From Natronococcus sp. AD-5 (GTDB lineage Archaea; Halobacteriota; Halobacteria; Halobacteriales; Natrialbaceae), in contig NZ_CP132295.1 in NCBI RefSeq assembly GCF_030734285.1, positions 310,001 through 374,000 of the forward strand: 64,000 bases of DNA. Reading direction: 5' to 3'. The notes beneath the pieces were generated by a model. It was not told the DNA's origin. It did no database searches and saw nothing but the letters and a program-made list of their open reading frames with translations. The stretch's first letter is position 1, and each line of letters begins with the position of its first letter. The position numbers were made by a program, and so were the translations under genes. Shown here in pieces: positions 8,057 to 32,519 of this stretch.

Positions 8057-9148
8057 GTGTCAGACTACGACGTAGCATTCATTGGAACGGGGCCGGAGCC
8101 CGACAACCCGGTATGGGGCGAAAGCGCGGCGATGGCGTACCACCACGCGGCCGCGTACGAGGAAGACGATCGCTGCTCGCTCGTCGCCTGCGCCGACATC
8201 GTCGAGGAGAACGCGAGCGCGTTCGCCGATCGGAACAGTATCGACGCGTCGAACGTGTTCACCAACTACGAGCGGATGCTTCGGGAGACCGAACCCGACG
8301 TCGTCAGCGTCTGTACGCCGGTTCCGACCCACGCCGACATCGTGATCGACTGTGCGAACGCGGACGGCCTGCGCGCGATCCACTGCGAGAAGCCGATGGC
8401 CGACACCATGGCCGCCAGCCGGCGAATGGTGGAGGTCTGTGCGGACCGCGGCGTCCAGTTGACGTTCAACCACCAGCGGCGGGTGGCGACCCCGAGCCGG
8501 CGTGCGGCCGAACTCGTGGAAGAAGGAGCGGTCGGCGACGTCGCTCGAGTCGAACTCGCGACGAAGAACCTCTTCGACGCCGGCACCCACCTCATCGACC
8601 TCTGCAACGCTATCCTCGGCGATCGCCCCGCGGCGTGGGTGATGGGGCAGATCGACTACCGCGAGGAGAACGTCCGCTACGGGGTCCACAACGAGAACCA
8701 AGCGTTCGCGCGCTGGCAGTACGAGGACGGAACGGACGCCATCATCGCGACCGGCGATAAGAACCCGCTCATCGCGTGCGACGTTCGCGTCGCGGGCACC
8801 GAGGGAGAACTCGAGCTCAACCCCGACGGCGACGCGCAGCTTCGGGTGAAGACGGACGACTCCGCGGCGTGGGACGAGATCGACACCGGCGAGCCGCTGG
8901 CCGACATTCCGGCCGCGGTCGACGACATCGTTCGCGGGCTCGAGACGGACGAAGAGCCCCAACTGAGCGGCCGGCGGGCGCTCGCGACGACCGAGATCAT
9001 CCTCGGCTGCTACGAGTCGGTGCGCCGGCGCGAACGCGTCGAGTTGCCCCTCTCGATCGACGACAATCCGCTCGTCTCGATGGTCGAATCGGGCGAACTG
9101 TCGCCCGAGTCGGCCCGCGACGAGGCGGCGCCGGATGTCAACTCCTGA
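8057..9148 (+). CDS. Gfo/Idh/MocA family oxidoreductase
   Basis: 363 aa NAD(P)-dependent oxidoreductase of the glucose-fructose/inositol dehydrogenase family. The N-terminal Rossmann fold begins VAFIGTGPEP, the hallmark nicotinamide-proximal motif is CEKPMAD (about residue 113), and the C-terminal domain has FDAGTHLIDL, placing the usual substrate-site His. Such enzymes oxidise a sugar or polyol hydroxyl to a ketone or the reverse. A GTG start at 8057 is used; it follows a good TATA element and precedes the conserved strand at once. It faces away from the glycan operon across a short promoter region, so it probably serves the same pathway. The substrate is unknown. Confidence 0.85.
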   Translation: MSDYDVAFIGTGPEPDNPVWGESAAMAYHHAAAYEEDDRCSLVACADIVEENASAFADRNSIDASNVFTNYERMLRETEPDVVSVCTPVPTHADIVIDCANADGLRAIHCEKPMADTMAASRRMVEVCADRGVQLTFNHQRRVATPSRRAAELVEEGAVGDVARVELATKNLFDAGTHLIDLCNAILGDRPAAWVMGQIDYREENVRYGVHNENQAFARWQYEDGTDAIIATGDKNPLIACDVRVAGTEGELELNPDGDAQLRVKTDDSAAWDEIDTGEPLADIPAAVDDIVRGLETDEEPQLSGRRALATTEIILGCYESVRRRERVELPLSIDDNPLVSMVESGELSPESARDEAAPDVNS

Positions 9149-9207: not shown

Positions 9208-10101
9208 TCAGTAGTACGGTTCGTAACTGGCGAGGAACGACTCGCTGTCGATTTCCGTGCGCTCGAGCGGCCCGGCGTCGGGCGTAACGGGTTCTCCGGT
9301 GTCGAAGGCGGTCTGTACGCCGACCAGGAGCGTTCCCGAGTCGACGACCCGATTCCGATCGTCGCGCTCGCCGCGAGCCGCCGCGAGGAACTCGTCCAGG
9401 AACGGCTCGTACATCCGCTCGAGTTCGTCGCTCGAGTTGCCGACCTGGACGGTTCGCGTGCGTTCGCCGACCGTCAGAAAGCCGAACGTGCCGTCGCTGT
9501 CCGGACCGTCGAACCGCAGCGTCGCCGCCGAGCCGTCCGCGAAGTCGATCGTCGCGACTCGCCCCGGGCCGTCGTTCGACGTGACCCGAGTCCAGTCGGT
9601 TCCCGCCAGCAGCCGAACGCTGTCCACGAGGTGGACGCCGTAGTAGAACGAATCGCCGTAGCCGACGGAGAACGCGGTTTCCGGCGTCGTGTCCGCGAGC
9701 GACGAGACGGACGGATGGAACGGAAGCGACGAGCCGCCGAAGAGCGGCGCGCCGCCCCGGACCGCCGCCCGCTCGATCGCGTTCACGTCGGCCACCGATC
9801 CCGCCAGCGGTTTGTCGATCATCGTCGGGACGCCCGCCTCGAGAAACGGCGCGGCGAGGCGGCGGTGTTCGTTCCAGTCGACCGTGAGCACCATCGCCGC
9901 GTCGACGTCGTCGACCATCGCGTGCGGATCGTCGTACCGATTCGCGTCGTAGCGCTCGCAGAACTCTCGCGTGTACTCCCTCTCGCGCACGTCGCCGCCG
10001 TCCCAGACGGCCGCGATCGATACGTCGGCGCGGCCGTCGAGAATGCTCGCGAACGTTTCCGGGTGACTGGTGTCTAACCCGAGTACCCCTAGCTCGATCA
10101 T
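9208..10101 (-). CDS. Gfo/Idh/MocA family oxidoreductase
   Basis: 297 aa, the shortest of the six family members in this window. The Rossmann start is MIELGVLGLDTSH, with a loose glycine pattern, and the EKP-type motif reads IDKPLAG (about residue 98). The start at 10101 is preferred to the ATG 7 codons upstream because it lies directly before the first beta-strand. It converges with the 8057 gene, their stops being 59 bases apart, and lies downstream of the GNAT gene. The departure from the EKP consensus (DKP) is tolerated in the family. Probably acts on a sugar or sugar-derived keto compound, but no substrate can be named. Confidence 0.8.
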   Translation of the reverse strand: MIELGVLGLDTSHPETFASILDGRADVSIAAVWDGGDVREREYTREFCERYDANRYDDPHAMVDDVDAAMVLTVDWNEHRRLAAPFLEAGVPTMIDKPLAGSVADVNAIERAAVRGGAPLFGGSSLPFHPSVSSLADTTPETAFSVGYGDSFYYGVHLVDSVRLLAGTDWTRVTSNDGPGRVATIDFADGSAATLRFDGPDSDGTFGFLTVGERTRTVQVGNSSDELERMYEPFLDEFLAAARGERDDRNRVVDSGTLLVGVQTAFDTGEPVTPDAGPLERTEIDSESFLASYEPYY

Positions 10102-10254
10102 TGTCAATACGTCTCTCTCCACGACATATAATTCTGATTACTACTCGTCGACAGTAGCGCACCGCTCTCTCCGGCGTTTCGCCGGTCGTGCTGGAAGCTC
10201 ATATCGCAACGTAATCCCCGGTAGGAAGGGGACCGGACTAAAACTACCGGTGGG

Positions 10255-19766: not shown

Positions 19767-20743
19767 AATTCGGCGTCTTTCTGAACCAGTACTACACGCC
19801 TGACGGCGACTTCGAAGTCACCGATCTGTACGAACAGGCCGAGCTGATCGAGGACGTCGGCTTCGACGGCGTCTCGCTCGGCGAGCGACACGTCCACGAC
19901 GAGGGCGTCGTCGAGCCGATCACGGGGCTCTCCGCGATCGCGGCGCGAACCGAGACGCTCGATCTCTCGACGATGGCGATGCTACCGATGCTGTACAACC
20001 CGCTGCACCTCGCCGAGTACGTCGCGACGATCGACCGACTCTCGGGCGGACGTATGCACTTCGGCGCCGCGGTCGGCTACCGCGAGCGCGAGATCGAGCC
20101 GTTCGGTATCGAGATGGAGGAGCGATCGAAGGCGATGATCGAATCGTTGCACGTGCTCAAGCAGTTGTGGACCGAGGACAGCGTCAGTCACGACGGAACG
20201 CAGTGGTCGTTCGACGACGCGTTCGTCAGTCCCCGGCCGGAGGGGGAGATGCCGGTCTGGATCGGCGGCCACGCGGATATCGCGATCAAGCGAGCGGCCT
20301 ACCGCGGCGACGCCTGGATCGCGAGCGCCTCCTCGACGACCGCCGACCTCGAGGAGCAGATCGGCGTCTACGAATCGGCCCTCGAGGAGTTCGACAAGGA
20401 CCGCGAGGACAACGAGGTCATCCTCATGCGGGACTGCTTCGTCGCCGATTCGGTCGAGGAAGCGCGGGAGACCATCGAGCCCTACCTCCTGAAGCTCTAC
20501 CAGATGTACGCCCGCTGGGGGCAGACCTACATGGACGAACACGAGGTCGAGGTCGACTACGACGAACTCGAGGAGAAGTTCGTCATCGGCTCGCCCGCGG
20601 ACTGCGTCGAGCAGCTGCGCGAGTACGAGGAACTCGGCGTCGACCAGGTGTACGTCCGCTGTCAGTTCCCCGGACAGCCCCAGGAGACGACGCTCGAGTG
20701 TCTCGAGCGCTTCGGCGACGAAGTCATCCCCGCGTTCGAGTGA
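19763..20743 (+). CDS. luciferase-like (LLM class) flavin/F420-dependent oxidoreductase
   Basis: 326 aa TIM-barrel protein of the bacterial luciferase superfamily. The N-terminus MKFGVFLNQYYTPDGD, the GVSLGERHVHDEG segment, LSGGRMHFGAAVGYRE and WIGGHADIAIKRAA are characteristic. Members use reduced FMN or F420 for monooxygenation or hydride transfer; haloarchaea make F420, so an F420 enzyme is possible. The GTG start is followed at once by the first strand. The next gene, a Gfo/Idh/MocA protein, begins 2 bases after the stop, so the two enzymes probably act on the same substrate. Confidence 0.85.
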   Translation: MKFGVFLNQYYTPDGDFEVTDLYEQAELIEDVGFDGVSLGERHVHDEGVVEPITGLSAIAARTETLDLSTMAMLPMLYNPLHLAEYVATIDRLSGGRMHFGAAVGYREREIEPFGIEMEERSKAMIESLHVLKQLWTEDSVSHDGTQWSFDDAFVSPRPEGEMPVWIGGHADIAIKRAAYRGDAWIASASSTTADLEEQIGVYESALEEFDKDREDNEVILMRDCFVADSVEEARETIEPYLLKLYQMYARWGQTYMDEHEVEVDYDELEEKFVIGSPADCVEQLREYEELGVDQVYVRCQFPGQPQETTLECLERFGDEVIPAFE

Positions 20744-20745
20744 CC

Positions 20746-21852
20746 ATGGCCAAATCCGATACCCCAACGACGGACGTCGGCACCGGCGACGGAACGGAGG
20801 GGCCGATCGTCGGTTACGTCGGCCTCGACCACCACCACGCCGAGCCGTACTTGCAGACGCTCGAGACGTTGCCGGCGACGGTGACCTGCGCCTGCGAGCC
20901 GAACGACACGTTCGACGCCGAGTCGGTCGCGAGCCTCGGCGACGTCCCCGTCTACGGCGATCTGGAGACGATGCTCTCGGATACCGCCCTCGACGCGGCG
21001 TTCGTGACGCTCTCGAACCGGGACACGCCGGCGGCCATCCAACGCGCGCTCGAGCACGGCGTCGACGTCTACACGGAGAAGCCGGCGGCGCGCACCGCTG
21101 CAGAACTCGAGCCGCTGATCGACCTCGCGGCGGGCACCGACGCGACCGTCTGCGTCTCCTACCCGTGGCAGGGTCACCCGATCGCCGAACAGCTGAAGTC
21201 GCGCCTCGACCGCGGCTTCTTCGGCGACCTCCGCGGGTTCGAGGCGCGGTTCGTCGCCTCGCAGCTCGAGTATCGAAACGCCGACCACTTCATCTTCGAC
21301 GCGGACGCGAGCCGCGGCGGCATCCTCCAGTGGCTCGGCATTCACTGGATCCAGCTCCTGTCGTGGCTCCTCGACTCACCGATCGCTCGAGTGAACGCCA
21401 GTATGGCCGCCGAGTTCGACGGAGTCGACGTCGAAGACGGCGCGACGCTCCAGCTGGAGACCGAGGCCGGCGCGCTCGGGACGTTCCACTGCGGCTACTA
21501 CCTGCGCGAGGGCGTGTACGACACCCAGCTCAATCTCTACGGCAGCGGCGGCCGGAGCAGCTGGGATCCGATGGGGCGGACCTTCGGCTTCGACGGCGAG
21601 ACGGCGCTCGAACTCGAGTCGACGGACGACGACTGGGGCGCCACGCCCCGCCGAACGATCACGCACGAGTACGAGTCGGAAGCCGGCTACGGCGGCGCGT
21701 GGGGGCGGGAGTTCGTCCAGGAGTTCTTCGAGGCTCGCGTCTCGGGGACGGAGCCTCCCGTAACGCTCGAGGACGCTCTGACCGTACTCCGGATTCTCGA
21801 CGCGGCGTACGAGTCGGTCGAGACCGATCGGTGGGCCGCGGTCGACGGCTGA
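20746..21852 (+). CDS. Gfo/Idh/MocA family oxidoreductase
   Basis: 368 aa. An N-terminal stretch of about 18 polar residues precedes the Rossmann fold (IVGYVGLDHHHAEPY). The EKP motif reads YTEKPAARTA (about residue 120), and the C-terminal domain includes ILQWLGIHWIQLL with the usual His position. The ATG at 20746 is chosen because it follows the preceding stop by two bases and the upstream extension of the frame overlaps the luciferase-like gene. The glycine-rich loop is degenerate (GLDHHH), so cofactor binding may differ from standard members. Confidence 0.82.
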   Translation: MAKSDTPTTDVGTGDGTEGPIVGYVGLDHHHAEPYLQTLETLPATVTCACEPNDTFDAESVASLGDVPVYGDLETMLSDTALDAAFVTLSNRDTPAAIQRALEHGVDVYTEKPAARTAAELEPLIDLAAGTDATVCVSYPWQGHPIAEQLKSRLDRGFFGDLRGFEARFVASQLEYRNADHFIFDADASRGGILQWLGIHWIQLLSWLLDSPIARVNASMAAEFDGVDVEDGATLQLETEAGALGTFHCGYYLREGVYDTQLNLYGSGGRSSWDPMGRTFGFDGETALELESTDDDWGATPRRTITHEYESEAGYGGAWGREFVQEFFEARVSGTEPPVTLEDALTVLRILDAAYESVETDRWAAVDG

Positions 21853-24146: not shown

Positions 24147-25157
24147 TCACCGATACTCGGCCAGTCGAACGGCCTCGCCGCGATCGCTCGAGTCGTAAAT
24201 CGCGCGGAGCACCCGCTGGACGGTCAGCGCGTCGTCGACGGTCCCCGCGAGCTCGGTCCGCTCCCCGGCGAGGGCCTCAAGGAACGCGCGGTCCTCCGCC
24301 AGGTGCATGTCGTCGACGTCGACGGCCAGCGTCTCCTCAACGGTCGTCCGAGCGTCGAACACCTCGACGTCCGGCTCGGTGACGTCGAACTCGGCGCCCG
24401 CGTCGGTTCCCCGGACGACGCACCGCTGGGACGGCGAGCGCGTCGCTCGCCAGGACGTCTGAACGGAGATCGTCCGGCCGTCGGCACACCGCAGCAGCGC
24501 GAGCGCCGAGTCCTCCACGTCGTACTCGCCGAACTCGCTGCGGGTGACGCCGGTCACCTCGAGGACGAGCGGATACTCGAGCAGGTACAGCGCCAGGTCG
24601 AGCACGTGGACGCCGAGATCCATCGCGACGCCGCCGCCGGCCAGTTCCGGATCCGTAAACCAGCTGCGCCCCTCGCCGGGCAGCGCGTCCCGTCGGAGGT
24701 AGTCCACGTCGACGTGCCCGATCGAGCCGAGTCGTCCCTCCTCGCGCAGCGTCGCGACGCGCTTCGTGAGGTTCGAGAATCGCATCGTAAAGCCCACCAC
24801 GCAGAACGCGTCGGCCTCCGCGGCCGCGACCGCGATCCGGTCGGCGCTCTCGAGGGAATGGGCCAGCGGTTTCTCGAGGAGGACGGCACACCCGCGCTCG
24901 AGGGCGTCCGTTGCGACCCGTTCGTGAACGCTGTTCGGAACGCAGACGAACACTGCGTCGATTGCGGCGTCCGCGAGCATCGTCTCGTGGTCCGCGTACG
25001 TCGAAACGCAGTGCTCCGCCGCGAACGACTCGCGCGCGTCGGCGCTCACGTCCGCGCCGGCGACGAGCGTCGCGTCGAGTCGCTCGATCCGGTCCGCGTG
25101 AATGCGGCCGATCGTCCCGAGTCCGACGATCGCGACGCGAGGGGCCGTCTCGCTCAT
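24147..25157 (-). CDS. Gfo/Idh/MocA family oxidoreductase (third gene of a coupled trio)
   Basis: 336 aa, the most canonical member here. It begins RVAIVGLGTIGRIHAD, has LLEKPLAHS (about residue 95) and GGGVAMDLGVHVLDLALYLL, matching the family D-x-G-x-H-x-x-D motif. The start at 25157 overlaps the stop of the upstream gene by 4 bases (ATGA), showing translational coupling. It probably dehydrogenates a sugar or inositol-type substrate with NAD(P). The three consecutive members share the order Rossmann fold then EKP then GGG motif but are clearly diverged, so they are paralogues with separate tasks rather than recent copies. Confidence 0.88.
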   Translation of the reverse strand: MSETAPRVAIVGLGTIGRIHADRIERLDATLVAGADVSADARESFAAEHCVSTYADHETMLADAAIDAVFVCVPNSVHERVATDALERGCAVLLEKPLAHSLESADRIAVAAAEADAFCVVGFTMRFSNLTKRVATLREEGRLGSIGHVDVDYLRRDALPGEGRSWFTDPELAGGGVAMDLGVHVLDLALYLLEYPLVLEVTGVTRSEFGEYDVEDSALALLRCADGRTISVQTSWRATRSPSQRCVVRGTDAGAEFDVTEPDVEVFDARTTVEETLAVDVDDMHLAEDRAFLEALAGERTELAGTVDDALTVQRVLRAIYDSSDRGEAVRLAEYR

Positions 25158-26149
25158 GACGAACGGTTCACCTCGACCGGCTGCCCGGTCGCCGCGGATT
25201 CGTACGCGGCTTCGACCACGGCGACCGCCTCGAGTGCGTCGGTCGGCGCCACGGCGAGTTCGCGTCCGTCGGCGACGCTGGCGACGAAGTCCCGTATCAG
25301 ACCGGCGTTCGGGTCGGTTCCGCAGAAGACCGAGTGGACGCCCTCGTCCTCGCCCGACGCCTTCGTGTGGCGGAGCGACCGGTCGAAGCAGTCGACGGCG
25401 ATCGTTCCCTCGCTGCCGACGAACTCGACCGCGGCGTCGCCCCACGTGTGCCACGCGTCAGGCTTGCTCCAGGAGCCGTCGAGCAGGAACGTCGTTCCGT
25501 CCGTCAGCCGCATCGAGAGGACGTTGACGTCCTCGACGTCGATCTCGTGAAATCGGGTCCCCGTCTCCGCGTACACCTCTTCGACCCGCTCGCCGATGAT
25601 GTGAGACACCAGATCGACGACGTGAACGGTGTGGTCCATCACGGCGCCGCCGCCGGCCTCGTCGGGCTCGACGAACCAGCCGCCGGGCATTCGTCCCCGG
25701 TTGGTTCCGGAGATCGAGAGCACGGTCCCGATTTCGCCCGACTCGAGCGCCGCCTTCGCCCGCCGCGCGGGTTCGCTGAATCGGAGCGGCATCGCCACCC
25801 CCAGCCCGATGCCGGCGTCGCGCCAGCGGTCAACGATCCCTCGGGCCGCCTCCACGGACGGCGCGAGCGGTTTTTCGCACAGGACGTCGACGTCCGCGTC
25901 GGCCGCCCGGTCGATCCACTCGGCGTGGCGAGCGTTCGTCGAGCAGACCAGCGCACCGTCGATCCGATCGAGCAACGCGTCGGCGTCGGGGACGTAGTCG
26001 ACGCCGTGACGGTCGGCGGTTTCGCGGCCCCGATCCACGTCCTCGTCCGCGATTCCGGCGAACTCGACGTCGTCTCGAGCGGCGAGCAGTCGCGCGTACT
26101 CGTCCGCGTGCACGTGGGCCACCGACAGGATTCCGACAGAGACGGTCAT
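25154..26149 (-). CDS. Gfo/Idh/MocA family oxidoreductase (second gene of a coupled trio)
   Basis: 331 aa. The Rossmann start is atypical, MTVSVGILSVAHVHADEY, with no glycine-rich loop; the EKP motif is LCEKPLAPS (about residue 96), and the C-terminal domain has GGGAVMDHTVHVVDLVSH. Loss of the dinucleotide glycines, with VAHVHA in their place, is seen in a subset of this family and may change cofactor or activity. Start at 26149 overlaps the upstream gene stop by 4 bases, and its own stop overlaps the downstream start by 4 bases. Confidence 0.86.
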   Translation of the reverse strand: MTVSVGILSVAHVHADEYARLLAARDDVEFAGIADEDVDRGRETADRHGVDYVPDADALLDRIDGALVCSTNARHAEWIDRAADADVDVLCEKPLAPSVEAARGIVDRWRDAGIGLGVAMPLRFSEPARRAKAALESGEIGTVLSISGTNRGRMPGGWFVEPDEAGGGAVMDHTVHVVDLVSHIIGERVEEVYAETGTRFHEIDVEDVNVLSMRLTDGTTFLLDGSWSKPDAWHTWGDAAVEFVGSEGTIAVDCFDRSLRHTKASGEDEGVHSVFCGTDPNAGLIRDFVASVADGRELAVAPTDALEAVAVVEAAYESAATGQPVEVNRSS

Positions 26150-27108
26150 CGACCCACCTCCGTCGGCGAGACTGGTTCGCCGCGCTCGGCCGAGCGCCGC
26201 GCGGCGAGCGCGAGCCGGAGCGATTCGACCGCCTCTTCGGGATCGACCGCCGGCTCCGAACCCGACTCGAGACGGGAGACGAAGTGCTCGAGTTCGCGCC
26301 GGTAGCCGTCTTTCGCGAGCGGTCGCTCCACCGTCGATCCGTCCTCGGTCCAGCGAACGTACGGTTCGTCGTCCGCGCTCGAAAATTCGACGAGTCCGTC
26401 GTTGCCGGCGAGTTCGAGTTCGGACGTCAGCGGTCTGCTCGAGGGTTGGGCCCACGAGGCCTCCACGTACCCCGCCGCGCCGTTCTCGAAGCGGAGCGTG
26501 GCGAATCCGTGCGCCGACTCCGCCTCGCCGCTCGTTCTGGCGAAGACGCGGTCGACCGGCCCCCAGCACCACCGGAGGTAGTCGAGGTCGTGGATCGCCA
26601 GGTCGACGAAGATCCCGCCGCTCTTCTCGGGATCGGCGAACCAGCCGTTCGATCCCCAATTGGGAAACGGCGAGAGGCGACGCGCTCGCGCGACGCCGGG
26701 CGAACCGATCGCGAGGGCTCTCGCTCGCCGGTACGCCGGCATAAATCGAACGACGTGGCCGACCATGCACGTCGCGTCCGCGTCGTCGACGAGCGCGGCC
26801 AGTTCGCGAGCGCCGGCGAGCGATTCCGCGATCGGCTTCTCGAGAAAGACGTCGAGCCCCGAGTCGACCGCGGTTCGGACGATCGGAAGGTGCGTGTGCG
26901 TCGGCGTGCAGACGTCGAGGAAGTCGACCTCCTCGCGTTCGCACATCGCGGCGACGTCGGCGTACGCCTCGGCGTCGAGATCGAACTCCTCGATCGTCTC
27001 GCCGGGGCCGCTCGGGGACGAGATCGCCGCGATCTCGACGTCCATCTCTCGGTACGCCTCGATGTGGGTCCGCGCCGTGAAGCCCGCACCCGCGATTCCG
27101 ACACGCAT
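26146..27108 (-). CDS. Gfo/Idh/MocA family oxidoreductase (first gene of a coupled trio)
   Basis: 320 aa. Standard glycine motif MRVGIAGAGFTARTHIEAY at the N-terminus, LEKPIAES (about residue 93) and GGIFVDLAIHDLDYLRWC in the substrate domain. First gene of the three-gene coupled set: its stop overlaps the following start by 4 bases. The 116-base gap to the threonine ammonia-lyase gene upstream probably contains the promoter. Likely a sugar or polyol dehydrogenase; substrate not deducible. Confidence 0.88.
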   Translation of the reverse strand: MRVGIAGAGFTARTHIEAYREMDVEIAAISSPSGPGETIEEFDLDAEAYADVAAMCEREEVDFLDVCTPTHTHLPIVRTAVDSGLDVFLEKPIAESLAGARELAALVDDADATCMVGHVVRFMPAYRRARALAIGSPGVARARRLSPFPNWGSNGWFADPEKSGGIFVDLAIHDLDYLRWCWGPVDRVFARTSGEAESAHGFATLRFENGAAGYVEASWAQPSSRPLTSELELAGNDGLVEFSSADDEPYVRWTEDGSTVERPLAKDGYRRELEHFVSRLESGSEPAVDPEEAVESLRLALAARRSAERGEPVSPTEVGR

Positions 27109-27224: not shown

Positions 27225-28445
27225 TCAGTTTACGCGTTCGACGTCGTATCCCTCGTCTTCGATCGTTTCGATGATGTCGCTCGCGTGACTGGCGCCGCTC
27301 GTCTCGACGAGAAAGACGAGGTACGCTTCGCCGACGGAGAGGGAATCGTTCGCCCGATAGTGGTGGACGGACCTGATGTTCGCTCCGCGATCAGCGATGC
27401 AGTTCGAGAGGTGCGCCATTTTCCCGGGTCCGTCGTCGATGCGAACGCGCAGGCGGATGAGCTGGCTCCGCGAGGTGAGTTCGTGGGTCAACAGCGTCTG
27501 CAGCATCGACATGTCCAGGTTTCCGCCCGACAGGAGCGGAACCACCGTCTCGCCCGTCACGTCGAGCCGATCGCTCAGCAGCGCGGCGACCGGCGCCGCG
27601 CCGGCGCCCTCGACGAGCTGCTTCGCGCGCTCGAGCAGGAGCACGACGCCGCTGGCGATCTCCGCGTCCGAAACGGTGACGACCTCGTCGACGTGCTCAT
27701 CGATGAGCTCGAGCGTGAGCGAGGACGTTCCCCCGGTCGCGATCCCGTCGGCGATCGTGTTCGGCTCGTCGAGGACGAGCGGTTCGTCCTTGTCCAGACT
27801 CTCCGGAACCGTCGCGGCGGATTCCGCCTGCACGCCGACGATCCGGACGTCCGGGGCGTGCTCGGCGAGGGCGGCGCCGATGCCGCCGACGAGTCCGCCG
27901 CCGCCGATCGGGACGACGACCGTCTCCACGTCGGGGACGTCGTCGAGGATCTCGAGCGCGACGGTTCCCTGCCCGGCGACGATATCGGGGTCGTCGAACG
28001 CGTGGACGAACGCCGTTCCGTCGCGGTCCGCGAGCGTCCGCGCGTGGTCGACCGCCGCGCCGAAGTTCAACCCCTCGAGCACGACGTTCGCGCCGTAGCC
28101 GTCGGTCGCCTCGATCTTCGACTGCGGCGCGGTCGTCGGCATGACGATCGTCGCCGGCACTCCCGTTTTCATCGCGGCCAGGGCGACCCCTTGCGCGTGG
28201 TTCCCCGCGCTCGCGGCGACGACCTCGCCGATATCGTCGCGTTCGGAGAGCGCGAGCAGCTTTCGATACGCGCCTCGCGTTTTGAACGAGCCGGTGCGTT
28301 GCAGGTGTTCCATCTTGAGGTGGATCTCGCCGCCGGTCGTCTCGCTGAGCGTCCGGCTGTACTCGATCGGGGTTCGCTGTACGATATCCGGATCCTCGAA
28401 TCGACGAGCGGCTTCGTCGACGTCGCTGGCTGTGACCCGAGTCAT
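27225..28445 (-). CDS. ilvA: threonine ammonia-lyase (threonine dehydratase) with ACT domain
   Basis: 406 aa fold-type II PLP enzyme that deaminates threonine (or serine) to a 2-oxoacid, feeding isoleucine synthesis or catabolism. The PLP lysine is Lys55 in RTGSFKTRGAY; the phosphate cradle is IGGGGLVGG, and AASAGNHAQG is the asparagine loop. The last 75 residues form a single ACT-like regulatory domain (RLRVRIDDGPGKMAHL). This length matches the short catabolic or archaeal type, not the longer two-ACT biosynthetic enzyme. RidA, which removes the enamine by-product, is encoded 9 kb away. Confidence 0.9.
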   Translation of the reverse strand: MTRVTASDVDEAARRFEDPDIVQRTPIEYSRTLSETTGGEIHLKMEHLQRTGSFKTRGAYRKLLALSERDDIGEVVAASAGNHAQGVALAAMKTGVPATIVMPTTAPQSKIEATDGYGANVVLEGLNFGAAVDHARTLADRDGTAFVHAFDDPDIVAGQGTVALEILDDVPDVETVVVPIGGGGLVGGIGAALAEHAPDVRIVGVQAESAATVPESLDKDEPLVLDEPNTIADGIATGGTSSLTLELIDEHVDEVVTVSDAEIASGVVLLLERAKQLVEGAGAAPVAALLSDRLDVTGETVVPLLSGGNLDMSMLQTLLTHELTSRSQLIRLRVRIDDGPGKMAHLSNCIADRGANIRSVHHYRANDSLSVGEAYLVFLVETSGASHASDIIETIEDEGYDVERVN

Positions 28446-30993: not shown

Positions 30994-31692
30994 TCACTCG
31001 AGATACGCGACCGACGTCGTGTGCAGCGACGTAAACCCTTCCGCGAACGGGACCCCGGCCCGCTGACCGAGCGATCGCGCCCTGGCGCGCACGTTCTCGA
31101 CGAGATCGTCGAACTCGCCGTCGATGCCGCCGTGATCGTCCAGCCACGCAACCTGTGATTCGTGGGCCTCGACCGCCCGCAGTTTCCGCTCGACGTGTTC
31201 GGAGACGTCCACGAACGTTTCCGGTTCGAACGACGACGTCGGCTTGCCAAAGTAGTAGACGTTCGACGGATCACACGGCGGTGACGCCGTTTCGACGAGC
31301 GGCAGCGACGTCATGTAGTACGCGTCCGTAACCAGCCGCGACGTGACGCGGTGATCCGGGTGCATGTCGTCCCGGTAGTGCGTTAGAACCAGTTCCGGGT
31401 CGTGTCTGCGGATCGTCTCCACTATTTCGAGTCGGTTCTCCATCGAGTACGTCACCCGACCGTCGAGAAAGTCGAGAAACTCGACCGTCGCGCCGAGTTC
31501 GTCGCCCGAGCGGCGCGCCTCCTCCTCTCGGACGGCGGCGATTTCCGCTTCGTCGCCGTCCGCCGTCCCGAGCTCGCCGCGCGTCATGTGAACGATCGTG
31601 ACGTCGTCTCCGCGATCGGCGTGCTTGGCCAGCGTTCCGCCGCAAAAGATGTCGGCGTCGTCCGGATGCGCAACTATCGCTACGATGGACAT
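30994..31692 (-). CDS. PIG-L (LmbE-like) family N-deacetylase
   Basis: 232 aa PIG-L deacetylase fold. The zinc motif AIVAHPDDADIFCGGTL is at the N-terminus, and the later DDMHPDHRVTS supplies the third ligand region. The family removes acetyl groups from N-acetylglucosamine derivatives. The start at 31692 (MSIVAIVAHPDD) is preferred to the ATG 9 codons earlier. The gene converges with the IclR gene, with stops 9 bases apart. A de-N-acetylation role would complement the GH20 hexosaminidase further left, but distance makes this only a suggestion. Confidence 0.87.
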   Translation of the reverse strand: MSIVAIVAHPDDADIFCGGTLAKHADRGDDVTIVHMTRGELGTADGDEAEIAAVREEEARRSGDELGATVEFLDFLDGRVTYSMENRLEIVETIRRHDPELVLTHYRDDMHPDHRVTSRLVTDAYYMTSLPLVETASPPCDPSNVYYFGKPTSSFEPETFVDVSEHVERKLRAVEAHESQVAWLDDHGGIDGEFDDLVENVRARARSLGQRAGVPFAEGFTSLHTTSVAYLE

Positions 31693-32519
31693 GGCAGAGC
31701 CGAGCCACCGCGGTAGCAAAATACTTTCGGTCAGTACGGTCGCTGAGAGAATTGTTTGATGATATAAAACAGACCGAGGACGGCCGGTGGCGCTAGCGCG
31801 GCCATCGACCGACTACTGCGACAATGGTATTACAGCTGTACCGTTGTAATACCCTGTTACTAGCCCGCTATCCGACGCGTCCATCGTCAGTGAGCGGCTG
31901 TCGATGTTATCTCCACGACGTATCGTCCCCTTCAACACGAGTGAATGAGTATCTCGACGGGTATCCCTGTGAACGATTTACTCCCCGAAGATCGAAGCGA
32001 AGCACGAGACCTCGCTCGTTTGAATTACTCGGCCGATAGTTTCACAATTATGGGGTGATGATCCGATTACAGTGCCAGAGACAGGTGTCAAATCGAATTA
32101 TACACAATACGGTGACTAACCGGATCTGAATAGTAGAAGAAAACCGAATTTATAACTGTGAGTGTGAGCAGTTATTTCCGCCCTACCGATAATGTGCGCC
32201 TGTGTTTCCTCATGTTCTCTTACGTTTTCCCGAAGTATATCGAATTCAATGTAGGTAATATGGTATGGTAATTCTCGTTTCGGTACGCTGCGCTCTCGAG
32301 TTCGAGCGAGACATCAGATAGTTGGAGAGTGTGCGGATTAGATAACCAGTAGCGTGTCCTACCGGGCCGATCCAGACTGGTAGTCTCGAGCGAATCGAAG
32401 CGAATCGCTAAAACGGTCCGTAAACCAGAGACGGCGTCGACCAGTAACGGATCACGAAACCTTCGAGCGAATAGTCCAGCGCTCGAGCGCGGCACCGGCT
32501 TCAATACGGGGCGGGCGGA
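31693..32519. other. 827-base gene-poor, AT-richer gap with an inverted repeat
   Basis: No convincing gene was found: open frames here have non-haloarchaeal composition and no recognisable motif. Local AT content is visibly higher than in flanking genes (for example 32040-32160). At 31826-31834 and 31845-31853 lie perfect nine-base arms, GGTATTACA and TGTAATACC, with a ten-base spacer. The region may be remnant or regulatory sequence. Confidence 0.5.
31826..31853. repeat. perfect 9-bp inverted repeat
   Basis: GGTATTACA, spacer gctgtaccgt, TGTAATACC. It could be an operator, a hairpin or a mobile-element relic. It is not adjacent to any confirmed start codon; the nearest gene start is the PIG-L gene on the other strand at 31692. 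Confidence 0.55.

Follow-up and report, generated by a model that had tools for sequence, protein, structure and literature searches.

A putative hetero-oligomeric Gfo/Idh/MocA oxidoreductase whose partner chain decays beside an intact catalytic chain in archaea and bacteria

Introduction

According to PMC5969746, the solved structures of the Gfo/Idh/MocA oxidoreductase family reported to 2018 are homo-dimers or homo-tetramers. The same source describes a Lys-Asp-His (K-D-H) triad for inositol dehydrogenases, and replacement of the Lys, Asp and His by alanine abolished activity in a scyllo-inositol dehydrogenase. PmdC dimerises through its C-terminal beta-sheet (PMC11489326), and the same face is given for a scyllo-inositol dehydrogenase (PMC5969746). 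The levoglucosan pathway, as presented in PMC7676230, has the two oxidoreductases LgdA and LgdC around two proteins that are annotated as isomerases of sugar phosphates, with a sugar ATP-binding cassette (ABC) transporter in the cluster. Here, we analysed a 64,000-nucleotide stretch of Natronococcus sp. AD-5 (contig NZ_CP132295.1, positions 310,001 to 374,000; hereafter the window), part of a 1.02 Mb contig in a 5.17 Mb genome, which carries three minus-strand genes of this family in the order A, B and C, with an ATGA overlap at each junction.

A and B have the two-domain fold of GenD2 (6nor), KanD2 (6jw6), levoglucosan dehydrogenase (6a3g) and the inositol dehydrogenases, all of them homo-oligomeric. 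A Gfo/Idh-like fold is also found in non-enzymatic use in the yeast transcriptional repressor Gal80, which is not known to be encoded as the partner of a catalytic paralogue. Identity with GenD2 and KanD2 is 24-28 percent, and B differs from them in its cofactor loop. Whereas the solved family members described in PMC5969746 are homo-oligomeric, A and B appear to be an unlike pair. LgdA and LgdC resemble them as two related oxidoreductases in one cluster, but differ in that each was purified and active alone, and the accessible text of PMC7676230 mentions no pseudoenzyme partner. No report of a heteromeric Gfo/Idh/MocA pair was found in the literature searched, most subscription papers lying outside its scope. 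On comparative sequence evidence, we propose that A and B are probably two subunits of a hetero-oligomeric sugar oxidoreductase dependent on nicotinamide adenine dinucleotide or its phosphate (NAD(P)), with B as the catalytic chain and A as its partner or scaffold; the complex, the cofactor binding and the substrate are deduced.

Results

A lies directly upstream of B in archaea and bacteria

An earlier note on this DNA had described three tandem paralogues joined by two ATGA overlaps, and the frames and both overlaps were confirmed in the sequence (Table 1). The Rossmann domain PF01408 was matched at 80.9 (A), 59.6 (B) and 90.2 (C) bits against a curated cut-off of 24, and the C-terminal domain models PF02894 and PF22725 were above cut-off in all three proteins. 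A and B each carry the complete Lys-Asp-His triad, and the EKP lysine and the D-x3-H motif are retained by A, B and C alike.

The conserved unit is the A-B pair, with A directly upstream of B in Halobacteria, Bacillota, Chloroflexota and other bacteria. A search with B of 293 genomes of the window's order found B in 32, its own genome included. These held 51 B frames (37 fetched loci), of which 46 had a same-strand A-type gene directly upstream, with a 4-base overlap in 44 of the 46 pairs; one of the five B frames without A was explained by a contig split, with A on the other half. The paired A proteins of the order diverge to about 26 percent identity with the window A. From a scan of named GTDB genomes, the best 80 of 349 matches were kept, giving 78 loci, by their titles 34 archaeal and 44 bacterial; the best named relative of B among these 80 was that of Natronococcus pandeyae (85 percent). 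Among B frames scoring 250 bits or more, A was directly upstream in 40/43 archaeal and 42/44 bacterial cases. The gap was -4 bases in 37 of the archaeal pairs and 12 of the bacterial ones, and no more than 50 bases in 38 and 40, respectively. The bacterial titles named Bacillota, Chloroflexota, Poribacteria, Actinobacteria and UBP4, and the frames missing an adjacent A were L073, L090, L091, L110 and L112, the last at a contig edge. In Chloroflexota, the phylum of a Caldilineaceae genome, B was present in 13 of 301 genomes; 11 of these had A upstream of it, and in the other two A was partly off the contig (L169) or absent (L168). The whole-genome searches kept a few best candidates per genome (e.g. 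7 or 5) and applied strict E limits; the counts may therefore miss weaker copies of B. The distances among A and among B proteins were correlated (r 0.65 for all pairs, 0.81 in archaea; the all-pair value was reached in 0 of 2000 permutations), and because this correlation mostly reflects species relatedness, it was not counted as proof.

At L053 (8489-10554), L090 and L091, the gene before B encodes a Gfo/Idh/MocA protein from a different subfamily, with a 4-base overlap in L053, and a partner swap is possible at these loci. A natural A-B fusion was also considered and rejected: the long frames in three Chloroflexota genomes proved to be overlapping frames with A and B separate, and no fusion was found among the loci examined.

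A loses its active site beside an intact B

The window A retains all catalytic residues, and its AlphaFold2 model (mean predicted local distance difference test score, pLDDT, 92.7) has an eight-stranded C-terminal sheet. Among 110 non-redundant pairs, the catalytic lysine of A was lost in 17. Fifteen of these lysine-less A proteins are archaeal and form one clade (support 1.0), as do their 15 B partners (support 1.0), indicating that pairs duplicate as units. Haladaptatus, Halogeometricum, Halegenticoccus and Halocatena are among the named members, or identical places, of this clade. In all 15 dead A proteins, the lysine is changed to proline and the aspartate is replaced; the second glycine is missing from 10 and present in 2, with no coverage of the position in the other 3. 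At 12 fetched loci (L035, L037-L039, L042, L043, L045-L049, L051), an intact-A pair of another subfamily faces the dead-A pair convergently.

A census of the class that includes Paenibacillus xerothermodurans covered 398 genomes; B was present in 44 of them, at 54 loci, some near-identical. An A-type frame was upstream of B at 54/54 loci, and comprised 37 live genes, 14 dead genes and 3 short remnants, the weakly recognised L198 among the last. Both glycines and K-D-H were present in 37/37 live A, while the catalytic Lys and Asp were absent from 14/14 dead A, two of which (L182, L188) were also without the N-terminal part. Fitch parsimony on a tree of 177 B proteins, with A scored live unless flagged and the contig-edge L169 included, placed 7 changes of the catalytic state of A, in archaea and in bacteria. 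The two chains are thus asymmetric, with about seven catalytic losses in A against none in B, in which K-D-H was present in 177/177.

Short remnants of A match its beta-sheet half

We surveyed the family of one remnant-bearing Bacillota genome (159 genomes, 46 with B) and inspected 30 B loci. An upstream remnant of 216-260 residues between stops was found at 17 of them, a live A at 10, a dead full-size A at 2 (L234, L236) and none close by at 1 (L213). Three more remnants were identified in other families (L163, L239 and L198); L198 and L240 are one locus, and L198 was the weakest, recognised in a four-sequence search at no better than E 0.0014. Across A residues 114-284, a stretch that takes in the beta-sheet domain at the C-terminus of the A model, a profile of 16 remnants aligned with the A family (hhalign probability 96.5, E 7e-10); against the B family, the probability was just 0.9. 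The fold residues R144, D174, G183, G210 and G235 were kept in 17/17 remnants, and R144, G183, G210 and G235 in nearly all dead and remnant A. The catalytic Asp and His were kept in 0/17, and the K91 column held Lys in 3/17, where the alignment is unsure. When the 159 genomes were searched with the remnant profile, 28 places in 26 genomes were found, 27 of the 28 directly upstream of B. A start/stop overlap of 4 or 1 bases was present in 18 of 21 remnant rows, two of the rows being one locus. None of five remnants reached a Pfam cut-off (four without a match, one sub-threshold), none of four matched NCBIfam, and the profile found nothing in the PDB up to E 1.

Dead A is under purifying selection

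The ratio of nonsynonymous to synonymous substitution rates (dN/dS) was estimated by the Nei-Gojobori method from pairs with unsaturated dS, giving rough values at high divergence. Usable pairs were 100/105 for dead and 91/105 for live archaeal A, 29/55 for dead and 45/45 for live bacterial A, and 92/136 for remnants. In archaea, dead A had a median pairwise dN/dS of 0.235, compared with 0.085 in live A from the same or matching genomes and roughly 0.11 in B; in bacteria, the medians were 0.254 in dead A, 0.04 in live A and 0.095 in the accompanying B. The remnants had a median of 0.293. With dN/dS far below 1, dead A is, by this measure, a protein under purifying selection, and its faster evolution than that of live A is what would be expected with just part of its role remaining.

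B keeps its triad and carries a replacement loop

The GxGxxG/A loop, usual in the family and not demanded by the curated model, is present in A and C and absent from B. In its place, S-x-A-H-x-[HN] was found in 107/110 B of the non-redundant pairs, which argues that the glycine loop was replaced and did not decay. Lys-Asp-His was present in 110/110 of these B proteins, as in the larger set above, and the terminal residue of strand beta-2 was acidic (D/E) in 96/110. Loci L058-L135 were fetched by two patterns, one containing MDH, and the other sets by whole-protein searches. The AlphaFold2 model of B (mean pLDDT 95.9, and 97 over residues 1-20 including the loop) also has an eight-stranded C-terminal sheet, and its nearest solved folds are GenD2 and KanD2, each solved with NAD (VIA-align Z 38.9, root-mean-square deviation 2.4 and 2.3 A). 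Searches of solved structures with whole B, its N-terminal 118 residues and the family profile returned the usual family members, and the best three alignments (whole B) and best five (profile) neither established nor excluded a B-type loop in any of them. These results are consistent with B binding NAD(P) through the divergent loop S-x-A-H-x-[HN].

The loops GAGFTA, VAHVHA and GLGTIG read by the earlier note are all present as described, but its view that the loop of B is lost did not hold. It had also suggested that one subunit, by its loop the middle protein B, may have lost cofactor binding; the roles appear to be reversed, with B keeping its triad and a conserved loop and A decaying.

The third gene and the gene context

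C as a constant third subunit was rejected; a C-like gene lies beside A-B in some lineages only (G279; A'-B'-C in G057 and G040; convergent in G237; L059, L087, L093), and the B/C junction is not conserved as the A/B junction is. C is most likely an enzyme in its own right, an optional member of the operon that carries A and B. The solved structure closest to C by sequence is the glycoside 3-oxidoreductase DgpA (E 4.4e-29). One group of Bacillota has, directly after B, a third gene of the Gfo type that is unlike C (L140-L145, L148, L149, L151, L153, L154; e.g. L142 2491-3462).

Table 1. Features of the A-B-C locus and its surroundings in the window.
Feature	Position	Strand	Remark
Gene A, Gfo/Idh/MocA protein, 320 residues	26146..27108	-	GAGFTA loop; K91, D169, H173
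Gene B, Gfo/Idh/MocA protein, 331 residues	25154..26149	-	S-x-A-H-x-H loop; K93, D172, H176
Gene C, Gfo/Idh/MocA protein, 336 residues	24147..25157	-	Canonical GLGTIG loop; facultative neighbour of A-B
A/B overlap, ATGA	26146..26149	-	A stop and B start inside the same four bases
B/C overlap, ATGA	25154..25157	-	B stop and C start inside the same four bases
A glycine loop GAGFTA, residues 7-12	27073..27090	-	
B loop S-V-A-H-V-H, residues 9-14	26108..26125	-	Replaces the glycine loop
C glycine loop GLGTIG, residues 12-17	25107..25124	-	
A residues 137-261	26326..26700	-	Eight-stranded C-terminal sheet (model); portion surviving in A remnants elsewhere
Threonine ammonia-lyase	27225..28445	-	Exceeds the TIGR01127 cut-off; lies 116 bases upstream of A on its strand
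PIG-L family deacetylase	30994..31719	-	Relatives recur by A-B pairs

A, B and C were all below the cut-offs of the named NCBIfam equivalogs. The scores, in that order, were 152.6, 124.3 and 135.5 for inositol 2-dehydrogenase IolG (TIGR04380, cut-off 355); 124.4, 107.1 and 115.8 for archaeal UDP-N-acetylglucosamine 3-dehydrogenase (NF040723, cut-off 450); 69.2, 85.4 and 92.8 for the halophile xylose dehydrogenase Gfo6 (NF041392, cut-off 350); and 51.6, 62.7 and 80.7 for levoglucosan dehydrogenase (NF052479, cut-off 650). The host genome has 22 PF01408 matches in its 5.17 Mb, and matches were also present in 14/14 control genomes; against that background, and with A-B adjacency recurring across the order, the arrangement is more than a chance one.

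A PIG-L deacetylase lies near A-B in 37 loci, the window included, and is the commonest clustered neighbour besides Gfo genes and antisense frames. PF01261 triose-phosphate isomerase (TIM) barrels, sugar ABC transporters, DgaE-like pyridoxal phosphate enzymes and IclR regulators also recur by A-B pairs; these neighbour counts are not independent, as two of the locus collections share organisms. The window itself also carries GH20, sulfatase, esterase and TIM-barrel genes. The neighbour families, with the GH20 and sulfatase genes of the window, point to sugar or amino-sugar catabolism, the substrate being a guess.

Several further observations were made around these loci. Three more Gfo/Idh/MocA genes are present in the window (20740-21852, 8057-9148 and 9208-10122), two of them with the unusual loops GLDHHH and GLDTSH. 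Relatives of AAC(3)-type N-acetyltransferases stand by A-B pairs in L024, L031, L044, L052, L056 and L067 (PF02522 in the scanned L044), hinting at amino-sugar substrates. A gene cluster recurs by haloarchaeal A-B pairs at 24 loci, including L028, L032, L035 and L047; its scanned member in L047 is a Cdc6/Orc1-type replication initiator, so A-B pairs may often sit by replicon origins.

Discussion

We propose that A and B would meet at the beta-sheets of their C-terminal domains, where this fold dimerises. B would be the indispensable catalytic chain, with Lys-Asp-His and a cofactor held by the divergent loop. A would be the partner chain, which would have begun as a full enzyme, as it still looks in the window, and whose lasting job would be structural or allosteric, since elsewhere it persists with a dead site or as a near-bare beta-sheet half. 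The substrate would be a sugar or an amino sugar. That A retains the dimer face and its place before B while losing the rest is best explained if A is the structural partner of B. Because A decays in archaea and in bacteria, the simplest reading is that the need of B for A is older than both groups, which should then also apply to the window pair with its complete A. The hetero-oligomer suggested by the earlier note thus gains comparative support for A and B, from their pairing and from the decay of A beside an intact B, but not for all three proteins, C being optional. With every catalytic residue in place in the window A, a complex with two active sites or two sequential steps are both possible there; the site of A may be a second active site, perhaps in a redox-neutral route resembling that of LgdA and LgdC (PMC7676230).

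Several observations weigh against this proposal. The window A, with all its catalytic residues, may act alone, and adjacency of A and B can come from shared regulation only. Solo A genes occur (G036 L029, G041 L050), as do further B genes without an adjacent A (G116 L030_6139, L168). A is convergent and about 1.2 kb off in G166/L073, about 35 kb off in G179 and about 1.9 kb upstream of B in L110 (a place also covered by L213 and L244), and in G227/L091 and L090 its place is held by another Gfo type. The remnant G1131 has no B beside it. The loss of catalytic residues is also incomplete, the histidine being kept in 15/15 dead archaeal A and in the bacterial dead A L191, and the second glycine in two of the archaeal proteins. 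Moreover, the MDH in one search pattern means that D172 of B is partly preselected in L058-L135.

A bolder form of the proposal, which we regard as unlikely, is that A-B represents a two-chain class of the Gfo/Idh/MocA fold, ancient enough to occur in both archaea and bacteria, with the sheets face to face and, in the complete form seen in the window, two unlike sites that would oxidise and later reduce the same sugar skeleton (3-keto type, redox-neutral) in one complex; where the second site is unneeded, A would decay stepwise to a bare docking sheet.

Among the alternatives, A, B (and C) could be separate homo-oligomers that act in sequence on one sugar, for example with C3 oxidation by one, elimination and hydration by TIM-barrel enzymes and re-reduction by another, as with LgdA and LgdC. 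The arrangement of the Lgd pathway, with two such oxidoreductases around two annotated sugar phosphate isomerases (PMC7676230), the recurrence of PF01261 TIM barrels by A-B pairs and the EKP lysine and D-x3-H held by all three window proteins are consistent with this. We nevertheless consider it unlikely, as it leaves unexplained why A is kept beside B, under selection, after about seven catalytic losses, and why the remnants match the beta-sheet half alone. That B is a degenerate, non-catalytic subunit, as the earlier note proposed, would fit its missing GxGxxG and a PF01408 match that begins at model position 13, and is very improbable given its invariant triad, conserved replacement loop and mostly acidic beta-2 residue, and given that in dead-A pairs B would be the sole possible catalytic chain of the two. 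It is likewise highly doubtful that dead or shortened A are translational leaders that couple the translation of B and have no role as proteins: the 4- or 1-base overlaps common in remnants too would suit such a role, but dN/dS is well below 1, an amino-acid core is conserved in the remnants, and R144, G183, G210 and G235 persist in nearly all dead and remnant A.

If A and B do form a widespread unlike pair, some proteins of the family that are expressed singly would lack a partner. The series from live enzyme to dead full-length partner to short beta-sheet remnant, beside an unchanged catalytic chain, looks like a natural record of how an enzyme becomes a scaffold, about seven times over, and the dead A proteins and remnants are ready-made test proteins. 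The signature S-x-A-H-x-[HN] near the N-terminus together with GGG-A-x-x-D-H would find the catalytic chain and its unannotated partner.

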